In this document: in pieces, positions 54,995 through 59,826 of the stretch
Numbering within the stretch: the stretch's first letter is position 1
Layout of the letters: each line of letters begins with the position of its first letter
NCBI RefSeq assembly: GCF_020511155.1
Contig: NZ_CP041216.1
Coordinates: 3,286,001 to 3,350,000 of the forward strand
Length of the DNA: 64,000 nucleotides
Source: Shewanella glacialimarina
GTDB taxonomy: Bacteria; Pseudomonadota; Gammaproteobacteria; Enterobacterales; Shewanellaceae
Direction: 5' to 3'
Notes under the pieces: generated by a model
The model's database searches: none
Seen by the model: only the letters and a program-made list of their open reading frames with translations
Told to the model about the DNA's origin: nothing
Program-made: the position numbers and the translations under genes

Positions 54995-55535
54995 AACAAG
55001 CAAAGCATGAGGCAAAAAAGGAGCATAAACAAATGCTGACCATAAGGCTAATTTAATTATCATGATAGCAATTAAATTAGGATTGTCTCCACAGCCCAAA
55101 GAGGCACTTTAGGCGTCAGTTAACTCATTTTGAAACAGAAATGGCTAGGCGGCTAGGTTTTAGCTCTCTGTACTCATATTTTGCTAACTATAGTGACAAG
55201 ATAAGCGTCAATAGAAGCAGACAAGCATAGTGGGTTAAGTGTGTAGCAAAGTCGAGTTTAACCAACTGCTCTTGTTACGTTTGAGTTTTTTGATGGACAT
55301 TATGGCTCGAACTACAACAAATAAGCAGATGAAATAAAAACTATTTGAATAAAAATAGCGACATAGAATAGTACAGTCCGAGCATAGTTCATTATGGTTT
55401 TTGGCAAAATAACATTTAAGTATTTGTGCGATGCACTGCTTGCTGGGCTTGGCAAGTGCCGAGCCCAGATTAAATGACATGCTTTATGCTATAGGAATAG
55501 GCTTTTTTACGGCTTAAAAATATACATTTTATATA
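54995..55535. other. Gene-free region between the barrel gene and the RluA-type gene
   Basis: About 540 bases. An 81-codon frame on the minus strand (55235-55480) has no family signature and I do not call it. The main feature is the strong hairpin at 55443-55468. Confidence 0.45.
55443..55468. repeat. Strong 12-bp stem palindrome
   Basis: CTGGGCTTGGCA and TGCCGAGCCCAG pair over 12 bases with one G-T wobble and a two-base gap. No T run follows on either strand. It lies about 70 bases beyond the barrel gene's stop. Confidence 0.6.
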
Positions 55536-56348
55536 CTACTTTGGAAATAGCAGCGTTAATTGTAGGCGAAACCCTAAGTCATGCGGGCCGTTATCTGGCG
55601 ACGCCGTCCAGTAACGAAAACCACCACCTACCTGTAATAGCTGATCGCCCACTTTAAATAACTGGTTAGCTGTCAAGTTCACCAGCGTGGTGGGCTCTTC
55701 AGCTTCCCAGTCATAGGTGTGCTCAATATTGAATCCATAGGTCGTTTTGCTCTGCGTAATAAAACTAACAAAGGGATTCACATAGGTTGCATTTATATCA
55801 CTACGACTATCTTCTCCAGCAAAGGAGGTTACATGGTTAGCCAACACCCCATAAGTCCAAGCTCCATCCTGCTTAAGTACCACACCAGTTGGCCCAGCGC
55901 CCCACTTTTCGCCGCCTAATGCTGCGTCAGACGCGGTATCTAACAGCAGTACCGGTCCAACACCCCAGATTAAACCACTGGCAGATGGCTGTTTGGGTGA
56001 GAAGAAAACGCTTTGCAATACATCGCCCAGACCGGATTCCCCCGCCCCTGCAACAGGAATATCGCTCTGTTTAATGACCGGCAAAATAGTACGAGAGATA
56101 AGATTCCAGTCATCACTTATTGATACCGGGATCACAGGTTGAATGTTGATGCGCAACACTGAGCCCTGTTCATTGGCGCCAATATTTTCATCAAAATTGG
56201 CTTGGATCGGTACACTGATTAATGCCGCCACTGGATTGGCGAGTTTTTTAGCTAAATCATCAGCCTCATCGGCAAAAGCCGTTAAGCATAGAGTTTGCGT
56301 AACACTAAACGTAGCAAATGCAAAAATAGCTTTATTTTTCATTTTCAT
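55536..56348 (-). CDS. Outer-membrane beta-barrel protein (transporter-like)
   Basis: A 270-residue exported protein with a signal peptide ending CLTAFADEADD. The rest has alternating strands and short turns and ends LQLTLLFPK, an outer-membrane barrel C-terminus. Phrases such as LISVPIQANFDENIG, LLDTASDAALGGEKWGAGPTGVVLKQ and TYGVLANHVTSFAG match proteins often annotated as transporter or, misleadingly, neuromedin U, related to the phenol MetA-like group. Substrate unknown. It follows a DUF1254 gene on the same strand after 99 bases that contain the attC-like element. Confidence 0.75.
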   Translation of the reverse strand: MKMKNKAIFAFATFSVTQTLCLTAFADEADDLAKKLANPVAALISVPIQANFDENIGANEQGSVLRINIQPVIPVSISDDWNLISRTILPVIKQSDIPVAGAGESGLGDVLQSVFFSPKQPSASGLIWGVGPVLLLDTASDAALGGEKWGAGPTGVVLKQDGAWTYGVLANHVTSFAGEDSRSDINATYVNPFVSFITQSKTTYGFNIEHTYDWEAEEPTTLVNLTANQLFKVGDQLLQVGGGFRYWTASPDNGPHDLGFRLQLTLLFPK

Positions 56349-56377
56349 GACTTTACTTCTTCAGTTGTTGGCTGTAG

Positions 56378-56436
56378 GCCTAACGATCCGGTTCAGTGGC
56401 GGGGCATTAACCCCGTCCGCTGCAACTGGTTGCTAA
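56378..56436 (-). repeat. Integron attC-like imperfect hairpin
   Basis: On the minus strand the element runs from TAGCAACC through GCAGCGGAC, GGGGTTAATGCCCC and CCACTGAACC to GTTAGGC. The inner stem CGGGG/CCCCG continues through GG/CC, CAG/CTG and GTT/AAC with single bulged bases on one side, as in attC sites. The 3' GTTAGGC fits the R' consensus GTTRRRY exactly; the 5' box (TAGCAAC) fits RYYYAAC poorly. It starts 12 bases after the DUF1254 stop and ends 30 bases before the barrel gene, as a cassette boundary would. Confidence 0.35.
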
Positions 56437-56447
56437 TCGCAATATAC

Positions 56448-57893
56448 TTATTTTACCCTTTCTACATCTGATAACTTCCATGAACCGTCAAAGAGACCTT
56501 CGGTCGGATGATAAGCACGGAGCCAGACAAAGAACCCTTTTTTAGGTAGTGTTTCAATCCAGTTGCTTTCAAAACCTTTTGGCGCCTTGGGGGCAAAGTA
56601 CAAGTCAACTGAACCGTCTGCATTGACCTTCAGTTTGTCATAAGATGAAACCGCTGGTTGTGTGCTCTTGTTTTGCACCAGCGAGCGAGTTTCAGAATCG
56701 TACAACGTAATCGACCAAAAATCTTTGGCTGGTACATTCGCAGGAATAGTCAGCTTGTAGCTATTCGCACCATCCAACCAGTTGTGTTTACTATCAACAA
56801 AGGTCTGGATGTATTGCGAGCCAGGGCCTGGTCCACGCAAAGCCATCGCTGGCGTCATGTAGATTGCGCCATAGAACCAATGCAAACGCTCATCAATCTG
56901 TTCGTAGTTTTCACCACGCTGATCAGGTTTGAGCAGCACCGCCCATTTCCATGAACGACCTTCCCAAACTTGAGCCCCTTCAATACGAGGTGCAAACAGG
57001 GTGGCACGTGCCATAGCATCGCCAAGTTGAGCACCTTCCAGCAAGATTTTCTTCTGTCTCGCATCGGGGTTGAAAGGTTTACCCTTTTCAATACCGAGAA
57101 ATTTCAGTGATGCCATGAAGAAACGATCGCGCTCTTCAACAGGGTTGTCATTGATGAAGTTCGACAGACGTTGCCAATACTCAAGGCCGACATGCGGGAG
57201 CGTATCGATTTTTGCATCGGTTAGCGAGACGAAACTATTGGGCTTTGGACTTGCGCGTTCAGCATAAGGATAAACTTTTGTTTTTTTCATCGACGCTACA
57301 GCAGCACCAACATCACCATTATCCACCAGACCACGAATCATGAAATTGTGACTGTTTTGAGTTGCCTGGATAACGATGTAACCTTCACTCGGAATTTCAC
57401 CGGTATAAGCTGGCGGCACAAAAAAATATTTCGCCCCCTTGCCTTTGTCCGGTCCAGCCAAACCAATATCGGTCAATGACCGTTGCCAGTAGTCATCAAC
57501 CATCCCTACGAAGCGTGCGTTGGGTACATCAATAACAACAGGACCATCCTTCAGCGTGAAGTTGGACTGCGCGTAAATGGTGGTGGTATTAGCGGTAAGA
57601 AACAGGCTGTTGGAGTTGGCATAATCATCGGCGATGATCATATCGCCGTAATTGAGACCTTCCGCTTTAGAACCCTCATACATAGACTGGAAGGAGACAG
57701 CAGGGAATGACCACATATAAGCCTGTGTTGCTCGCTGCATGTCCATTTCGTCATAGAGGTTCTGAACTGATTTAGTGTTTGCAGGATAACCTTGATGAAA
57801 ATCCTGTCCATAAACACTTGAAGCCATAATGGCTGCAAATAGCCCAGAAAATATCGTGGTGGCCAGCTTACTTTTTGTCTTTGTAGTTTTCAT
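56448..57893 (-). CDS. Exported DUF1254/DUF1214 protein
   Basis: A 481-residue periplasmic protein with a signal peptide (about 1-29, ending SSVYGQD). The N-terminal DUF1254 domain (about 45-175) includes SNSLFLTANTTTIYA and DVPNARFVGMVDDYW; the C-terminal DUF1214 domain (about 350-475) includes DFWSITLYDSETRSLVQN and a closing FFVWLRAYHPTEGLFDGSWK. The family has no firmly known biochemical role. AAAGGG precedes the ATG. By eye it is richer in GC than the flanking DNA. It lies between a broken DUF1254 paralogue and a barrel gene on one strand. Confidence 0.85.
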   Translation of the reverse strand: MKTTKTKSKLATTIFSGLFAAIMASSVYGQDFHQGYPANTKSVQNLYDEMDMQRATQAYMWSFPAVSFQSMYEGSKAEGLNYGDMIIADDYANSNSLFLTANTTTIYAQSNFTLKDGPVVIDVPNARFVGMVDDYWQRSLTDIGLAGPDKGKGAKYFFVPPAYTGEIPSEGYIVIQATQNSHNFMIRGLVDNGDVGAAVASMKKTKVYPYAERASPKPNSFVSLTDAKIDTLPHVGLEYWQRLSNFINDNPVEERDRFFMASLKFLGIEKGKPFNPDARQKKILLEGAQLGDAMARATLFAPRIEGAQVWEGRSWKWAVLLKPDQRGENYEQIDERLHWFYGAIYMTPAMALRGPGPGSQYIQTFVDSKHNWLDGANSYKLTIPANVPAKDFWSITLYDSETRSLVQNKSTQPAVSSYDKLKVNADGSVDLYFAPKAPKGFESNWIETLPKKGFFVWLRAYHPTEGLFDGSWKLSDVERVK

Positions 57894-57966
57894 CGTCGTA
57901 CCCTTTAGTATGCGTTGGGCTTGTAAATTTGCTTATTGCTTTTTAATACATAACTCAAAAATAAAA

Positions 57967-57991
57967 CAGGCCGCCTATCCTAGGCGGCCTG
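57967..57991 (-). terminator. Terminator of the broken DUF1254 gene
   Basis: CAGGCCGCCTA-TCC-TAGGCGGCCTG, 11 pairs, followed on the minus strand by TTTTATTTTT. It lies directly after the stop at 57994. Confidence 0.88.
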
Positions 57992-57993
57992 CA

Positions 57994-59187
57994 TCAAATT
58001 GTTTGTTTCTTACACAAATCGTTGTGTTTTAACAGGGTGTCAGCATCAACGGTTGGGTGGTAGTAACGGCTAACAAAGTAGTAAGGCTCACCCGCATTAA
58101 CGTACATCCAGTAATGGCCCACGGGTAAGTTTTTAGGCTCTTTAGGTGAGAACGTGATGGTGATGTTGCCATTGCCATCAGGCTTAGTGTTATAAGCGTT
58201 GAAGATGTCGTTGTGATCGGCAATCGTGTTGCGCGTCAAACCGCTATATCGGGTGACTGACCAGAATTCGCTCACTTCAGGTGTGTAGTTCATGGTGATG
58301 GTGAAGTCTTTATCGCCATTAAGTGGCGTGTTCTCACAATCAACAAAGCTAGCGCCGTACACAGCTATTTTGATTGGTAATCCAAGGTGCCCGATAATAC
58401 CCGAAGCACGAACCTTTGGATCATTTGAACCATCAGGGTCGTCAATTGCCTCAAACATGCCTGCGCTACTTTTCACGGACGCAGAATAATCAGAGATATA
58501 TTTGAACATTTTGGCATGTGTTTCAGCGTTATAGGTCAATTGGTCATCCATCACGCCCTTGTTCTGTGGGTATACATCATGCGTCGCCAAAGTCCACTTG
58601 ATTGCATTGTCGTAGTCAACTTTACCAACAGGGCCGGTAAGTTTTATTTGGTCTTGAATGGCGTGATTAGTTGGCAAATCGGCGGTATCAAACAATTGGG
58701 TGCGAATAAATAGGTGTGGGTAATGACCGCGATTTCTGATGACAGTGACATCAGCTGGGAATTCTGTTGTGTCTTTGTAATAAGCGAACACAAATTTACC
58801 GGATGGACGCAACTTGTAGAATGTGGCGTAGTGTTCCTGATCATGAATTTCCATCGAGAAGTAACGCCCTTCAACAACTGGCATGTCTAAGTACACAGGG
58901 CCCTTAGTTGTATCGATAACTGCTTTGGTGTAAAGGTGGTCTAAGCTGGGCGTAACCACGGGATCTGCGCCTTCAGTAGGCAATTGGCGAGTGTGCTACA
59001 AGGTGTTCGTGCCACCCGCTTGCTTAGCGGTTGCTTTCAAGTATTCTGCATGGTGGTAAGCTTTGTAGGCGTGAAGTTGGCCAACAGATGGTTCAAATGC
59101 AGCTGGTTCGACAGCAAAAACATTGAATGCGAGCAGTGCTGACAATATCGTAGCTGTGAGTTTTCCCTTTATCTTTAAGATAATCAT
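57994..59187 (-). pseudogene. DUF1254/DUF1214 gene interrupted by an in-frame TAG
   Basis: One frame runs from the ATG at 59187 to the stop at 57994 except for a single TAG at 58996-58998. The first part encodes a signal peptide (ALLAFNVFAVEPAAFE) and the segment AKQAGGTNTL; after the TAG the reading continues HTRQLPTEGADPVVTPSLD, a normal DUF1254 core, and then the DUF1214 domain to residue 397. Both halves are otherwise undamaged, so the break is a point change, possibly TGG to TAG, a sequencing error, or suppression. The downstream part alone would lack an export signal. A terminator follows, separating it from the intact paralogue. Confidence 0.8.
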
Positions 59188-59826
59188 AGTCTTGTATTTC
59201 CGTAATTGTAGTTAAAATATTACTGTGTTCTTTCTCAACGGGTATAAGGTGTTCATTTAACCAACCAATTGTTATAAGTAGATGTTTTTTTATAAATTTA
59301 TTTATAAATTTATTAGCTGACTTTGTTAAATAATTCAATTAAAACCTCTGTTTTTATTAACAATCCCTTTCGCGATGAATTTTTGTAAGTATGACGACCT
59401 TTAAAAATAGTTGCAGAGGAAAATCCAGCCATGAATGACTCCTAATAGTCTATTAACTCGAGTTTTATTTTAACTTTTCAATGTCATGCATTAGACAATA
59501 CATTTATCACTGACTATTTACTTTTTCTTGACCGGGAACATTTTCATCTTCCCCACACAATGAGTTGCATTAGAGCGAGTCTTGAGTATTGGTGTGTTAA
59601 AATCATCAGCAGGTAATAGATTGTATTGAATTAATTATTGAGTGCTTTTAAGTATAAGAATAATTTAGATTTTACTTAGAAAAAAAGCCCCAAAGCTAAC
59701 AAGCTTTGGGCTTAAATGAGTGAAATATTCAGGCTAATGTCATTTATAGGAAAATCAGATATTTGCGCTCAATCTTCTATCCATTATGACAACATAAAAC
59801 TTATAACCGACAATAGGTGTCATCGT
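59188..59826. other. Gene-free region between the chemoreceptor and DUF1254 genes
   Basis: About 640 AT-rich bases. It holds the chemoreceptor terminator at 59680-59712 and the promoter region of the DUF1254 locus. A minus-strand frame at 59093-59338 overlaps the DUF1254 start and has no family signature. Confidence 0.5.
59680..59712 (-). terminator. Terminator of the chemoreceptor gene
   Basis: On the minus strand GCCCAAAGCT-TGTT-AGCTTTGGGGC is followed by seven T. It lies about 115 bases after the stop at 59827. Confidence 0.85.

Follow-up and report, generated by a model that had tools for sequence, protein, structure and literature searches.

In Shewanella glacialimarina, two genes on the minus strand are separated by a 99-base gap (56349-56447) that contains a hairpin resembling attC, the recombination site of integron gene cassettes. 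We asked whether this hairpin is an attC site and, if so, how it came to lie at this locus. Coordinates refer to the window, that is, the whole stretch of 64,000 nucleotides that was analyzed (positions 3,286,001 to 3,350,000 of NZ_CP041216.1), unless a contig is named. The gene before the gap, DUF1254a (56448-57893), encodes an intact exported DUF1254/DUF1214 protein of 481 aa (Pfam PF06863 and PF06742). The gene after it, barrel (55536-56348, minus strand), encodes an exported protein of 270 aa, in which no Pfam or NCBIfam match was found. A preliminary description of this DNA had proposed an attC-like site directly behind the DUF1254 gene, had noticed neither an integrase nor a second attC, and had considered a relic, a lone cassette and chance as explanations.

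We scanned GTDB genomes for CAGCGGAC-N-CGCTGAAC-N-GTTAGG, a pattern absent from the candidate itself, and obtained more than 80 sites in many phyla. An R'' box near RYYYAAC was present at the right distance in nearly all of them. Because R'' was conserved although it was absent from the search pattern, we regard these sites as real attC. A covariance model, R1, was constructed from 56 of the pattern-scan attC sites, all from other bacteria, and the candidate was left out. R1, which favours a candidate-like subfamily because the pattern was picked with the candidate in view, scored the candidate at 49.1 bits (E 8.2e-10 for the window and 5.7e-8 for the 4.46-Mb genome). No second R1 match was detected in the genome up to E 10. 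Across 128 congeneric genomes the candidate was the top R1 match; 22 genomes contained at least one match at E 1e-3, and most of the listed matches from congeners possessed full R', R'' and L boxes. The Rfam scan of the window detected one tRNA only and no match to an attC family, and a similarity search of the hairpin in plasmids returned chance matches only. When the own genome was searched for a perfect R''...R' pattern, the one match was an unrelated palindrome.

The attC site comprises 61 bases (56378-56438), and the minus strand is the cassette orientation. On this strand it reads, 5'-3', GATTAGC-AACCA-GTT[G]CAGCGG[A]CGGGG-TTAATG-CCCCGCCACTGAAC-CGGATC-GTTAGGC, where brackets denote bases bulged from one arm. 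R', L', L'', the spacing and both extrahelical bases conform to the attC norm, and R'' alone departs from it. As the preliminary description stated, the R' box GTTAGGC (56378-56384) is perfect (GTTRRRY) and the R'' box GATTAGC (56432-56438) is degenerate, and the sequence and the R1 alignment agree on both. Cleavage would be expected in R' between G (56384) and TT. R'' differs from GCCTAAC at three of seven bases and fits RYYYAAC at five of seven positions. Four of the seven R''/R' pairs are standard and three are not, and the distance between the boxes is right in the R1 alignment. The L'' arm (GTT[G]CAGCGG[A]CGGGG), a 6-base loop and the L' arm (CCCCGCCACTGAAC) occupy 56391-56426 according to the sequence, the fold and the R1 alignment. 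The extrahelical bases, G at 56423 and A at 56416, are at the same bulge positions as in the consensus of the 56 training sites. Since some training sites and the attC of a homologue in genome G757 are also degenerate at R'', this box alone does not exclude membership among attC sites. It does render the activity of the site uncertain.

In folding predictions, the plus strand of the window, that is, the bottom strand of the site, folded at -17.2 kcal/mol (z -3.4) with two single-base bulges on one arm, and none of 200 shuffled sequences folded as well. The top strand folded at -13.0 kcal/mol (z -1.55). The bottom strand is the recombining strand of attC sites, and a folding bias toward it is expected of attC. 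The plus strand is the one expected to fold and recombine at 56378-56438. No T tract follows the hairpin. DUF1254a and the site have the same orientation and lie close together, as in a gene cassette: the stop codon of DUF1254a is 9 bases from R'', and R' is 29 bases from the ATG of barrel. The layout of a cassette junction noted previously thus holds, whereas the distances of 12 and 30 bases given for it do not. Judged by its sequence, the site at 56378-56438 is a genuine attC, far beyond chance, and DUF1254a is its cassette gene.

Although no integrase had been noticed, the genome does encode one, outside the view of the preliminary description. An intact IntI was found at C1:852603-853541 (TIGR02249, 391 bits versus a cut-off of 265), about 2.5 Mb from the locus, and it was the only match in the genome above the cut-off of the IntI family. 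No intI lies within the window, so the locus is not a complete integron. The array behind intI contains four long attC sites (about 100 bases), which scored 73.7-98.1 bits with a second covariance model, R2, that was partly built from these same four sites. This resident integron (G000:C1:850000-869999; L006:2601-8291) carries at least five cassettes, mostly of unknown function, and one of its attC sites has GCTAGGC in place of GTTAGGC as R'. Among congeners, the attC most like the candidate in a DNA search (L269, G041:C43, 4475-5855 and 7511-8590) has as neighbours an IS110-family transposase (PF01548 and PF02371) and a truncated intI. Another attC on the same contig adjoins a further, near-identical copy of the transposase. 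IS110-family transposases of this kind are known to target attC.

We then compared the locus with that of relatives. In four of them (G105, G041, G120 and G003), an RluA-like gene and a chemotaxis gene are adjacent, with a short spacer that carries a shared terminator and without an insert. In S. glacialimarina, about 4.7 kb (55090-59810, minus strand, ends uncertain by about 30 bases) part the RluA-like gene from the chemotaxis-receptor gene and contain barrel, DUF1254a and a second DUF1254/DUF1214 gene, DUF1254b. DUF1254b (57994-59187, minus strand) is interrupted at codon 64 by an in-frame TAG (58996-58998). This single TAG lies after an intact signal-peptide-like start, and homologues in other genera are open. 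The third-position GC content of the three insert genes was 0.43-0.49 versus 0.32-0.40 for the flanking genes. The best full-length matches of DUF1254a in 130 congeners were about 40% identical, the closest congeneric homologue of barrel was at 54%, and a protein scan of the genome contigs for relatives of DUF1254a detected none. The three genes were not found together elsewhere, and barrel adjoined no DUF1254 gene in the other loci examined.

The boundaries of the cassettes are less distinct. The hairpin in the gap between DUF1254b and DUF1254a, considered as a third attC, is better read as an intrinsic terminator (57966-57992, minus strand), as a T tract is present. GTTATGT at 57948-57954 (minus strand), an R' variant found in other attC sites of the genus, is the only candidate for the 5' boundary of the DUF1254a cassette; the R2 match there (57948-58015) was weak (12.9 bits). 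GCCCAAC just upstream of DUF1254a was rejected as an R'' box, as it is accompanied by no matching L or R' boxes. Because no sound attC or attI lies upstream, the 5' boundary of the DUF1254a cassette is undefined. Likewise, no clean G/TT junction was found at the ends of the insert, where the junctions can be resolved to about 30 bases. The insertion could not be pinned to one G/TT triplet, as both ends align weakly, over about 30 bases, to the same short ancestral spacer.

A second attC, not recognized in the preliminary description, lies behind barrel in decayed form. The repeat that bears it (55396-55508, minus strand) is 82% identical over 74 nt to C1:857069-857142, inside the resident array (E 2.5e-14); this is its only other strong match in the genome, and the next best has E 0.003. 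Related copies in other congeners end in attC (GTCCAAC...GTTAGGN), with pairing between the R and L arms in 91.7% of cells versus 29-44% when slid. The copy in the window aligns along its length, but an 18-base deletion has removed L'' and R' reads GTTATTT. Barrel is probably the next cassette gene. A stretch at 55200-55298 (minus strand) that may be one more remnant of a long attC of the Shewanella type scored weakly with R2 (17.8 bits; E 0.13 over 119 kb and 0.0053 over the 5-kb insert). Elsewhere, a Shewanella-type repeat of about 115 bases consists of a TTCCTATAGCAT-hairpin segment and an attC (L020:2982-3097, L206:733-850, L221:585-703 and L006:7070-7188), and this extra 5' segment is conserved across the copies.

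A DUF1254 gene joined to an attC, which the preliminary description had thought worth seeking in other genomes, was found in five. DUF1254/DUF1214 genes with attC directly behind them occur in four other proteobacterial genomes (G757, G506, G003 and G088) and in one planctomycete. G757 encodes the closest homologue found (46.7% over 289 aa), and its attC (43.4 bits), within about 20 bases of the stop codon, has two features in common with the candidate, namely the TAATG loop and an R'' that unusually ends in AGC. In G506, a 47.0-bit attC lies between two DUF1254 genes. In the planctomycete, a Pirellulales genome, the DUF1254 gene is 40% identical over 454 aa and is followed after about 16 bases by an attC that the pattern scan had collected independently of DUF1254. 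In G003, a DUF1254 gene is followed by a Shewanella-type attC ending in GTTAGGC. In G088, a DUF1254/DUF1214 gene precedes a short attC-like site (R1 14.3 bits, R2 20.0), after which come a thioredoxin-like gene and then a long attC of 66.7 bits. About 1.7 kb before the G003 gene is a retron-type reverse transcriptase (L268, G003:C1, 6117-8020; PADLOC RT_I-A/RT_II-A) with an NDT_II-A effector upstream. Two fragmented gammaproteobacterial genomes, both from one genus, each contain several paralogues of DUF1254/DUF1214, some of them in tandem (G647: L288 and L289; G757: L286, L287 and L284).

When 58 attC sites were ranked by similarity to the candidate, the three linked to DUF1254 ranked 1, 3 and 11 (P 0.0017), and two of the three sites most like the candidate belong to DUF1254 genes. 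R1 sites occurred at about one per 22 Mb in the genus, whereas the 44 kb surrounding class-level DUF1254 homologues contained two; these figures serve as a lead and not as a rate. On the DUF1254 tree the attC label was scattered, with no single clade and at least four changes, which suggests that attC captures were repeated or frequently lost. DUF1254a grouped weakly with the attC-linked G757 protein (81/65). DUF1254/DUF1214 exported proteins may be recurring integron-cassette cargo that crossed phyla with one attC subfamily, gene and site having travelled as a unit between Planctomycetota and Gammaproteobacteria, a proposal to which we give even chances. The literature search, as far as it was taken, returned no paper tying DUF1254 or DUF1214 to integrons.

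The locus is, in our judgment, probably a relic cluster of gene cassettes stranded outside an integron (CALIN) and shrinking towards a single attC, since the genome possesses a resident IntI and array, the insert is absent from four relatives, and the second, decayed attC is kin to the array. Among the explanations considered earlier, the relic fits best, extended to a decayed cluster of at least two cassettes. The cluster contains one sound and one decayed attC, and intI is about 2.5 Mb away; because the neighbouring attC has decayed, a two-site rule would not count it. Counted by R1, there is one intact attC with no neighbouring integrase, which is the description of a SALIN, and an integrase might have put a single cassette, DUF1254a with its attC, at a secondary chromosomal site, while the neighbours came separately. 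The good preservation of one attC alone, the frequency of SALINs in Shewanella (PMC9229058) and GTTATGT at 57954-57948, which might mark the 5' end of a lone cassette, would suit such an event. We nevertheless consider it improbable, given that the next gene also ends in a decayed attC akin to those of the integron array and begins 29 bases after a perfect R' GTTAGGC, as at a junction between cassettes.

It is also conceivable, if rather doubtful, that all 4.7 kb arrived together, either as a genomic island or through homologous recombination with the array of another genome, without any integron integrase having acted here. The ends of the insert are consistent with this, as they lack clean G/TT junctions and both have weak similarity of about 30 bases to the same ancestral spacer; on the other hand, no island integrase, transposase or tRNA was seen there. 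Such a transfer would contradict only the last step of the relic-cluster history and not the cassette origin. That the hairpin is a terminator or a product of chance, similar to attC in appearance only, is hardly credible. Hairpins do occur behind other DUF1254 homologues, for example in G087 (L055), but that hairpin, tried as an attC, had no R1 score. The candidate stands alone genome-wide up to E 10, lacks the T tract of a terminator, and matches attC in the register of R', spacer and L' and at both extrahelical positions. The covariance score was high, and the hairpin is not conserved at this locus; a low score together with conservation of the hairpin in many genomes without integrons was the outcome that the preliminary description had foreseen as counting against an attC.

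If the locus is a relic cassette cluster, cassette DNA of about 4.7 kb would have entered the genome of an ancestor where the RluA-like gene and the chemotaxis-receptor gene adjoin. In this cluster, a DUF1254 gene with a short attC at its end would have been followed by the barrel gene with an attC of the Shewanella type, and the second DUF1254 gene, now broken, would probably have belonged to it as well. We infer that an integron integrase, resident or former, brought in the cassettes, whether in a single block or by successive insertions at a non-att site. The first attC has kept all that the integrase needs except a good R'', and the second has lost its L'' arm. Today the attC is most likely a low-efficiency target for incoming cassettes or inert DNA. 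Because it retains a perfect R' and correct extrahelical bases and the genome encodes IntI, it may still take up cassettes at a low rate; DUF1254a should not be released cleanly, since no sound second attC lies upstream. This history would give an uncharacterized envelope locus a mobile origin. The case also shows that a decayed partner site, together with relatives in which the site is empty, allows a degenerate cluster to be recognized even when only one of its attC sites is sound. Should DUF1254/DUF1214 genes prove to be recurrent cassette cargo, cassette arrays would offer a way to study their distribution and envelope role.

The site resembles a short attC subfamily (AACCGGTTGCAGCGGACGG...CCGCCGCTGAACCGGAGC-GTTAGGC) of many phyla, whose members have almost the same L boxes, spacers, extrahelical bases and R' as the candidate (best pairwise identity, 80%). 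It differs in its degenerate R'' and in having CACTGAAC for CGCTGAAC in L', which results in a G-T pair on the bottom strand. The resident Shewanella-type integron supplies an integrase, and the repeat downstream of barrel has its only other copy in the array of that integron; in contrast to the candidate, the attC sites of the integron are about 100 bases long, have no R1 score and lie about 2.5 Mb away. Integration of cassettes at non-att sites mediated by attG (Loot et al., 2024, as cited in PMC12901181) would account for the presence of cassettes at a chromosomal site that has no attI, although the junctions here are too poorly resolvable to show an attG event. In its default mode IntegronFinder 2.0 skips single attC sites, although its authors concede that such sites may be genuine (PMC9024848). 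CALINs occur in most Shewanella strains, and 115 single-attC cassettes were reported in 41 genomes (PMC9229058). The present locus is similar to these SALINs and CALINs in that an attC lies directly behind an ORF, far from an intI that is present elsewhere in the genome, and differs in its cargo, a DUF1254/DUF1214 exported protein. Stray attC sites and clusters without an integrase are thus already known in Shewanella, and the recurring DUF1254 cassette is the fresher point.
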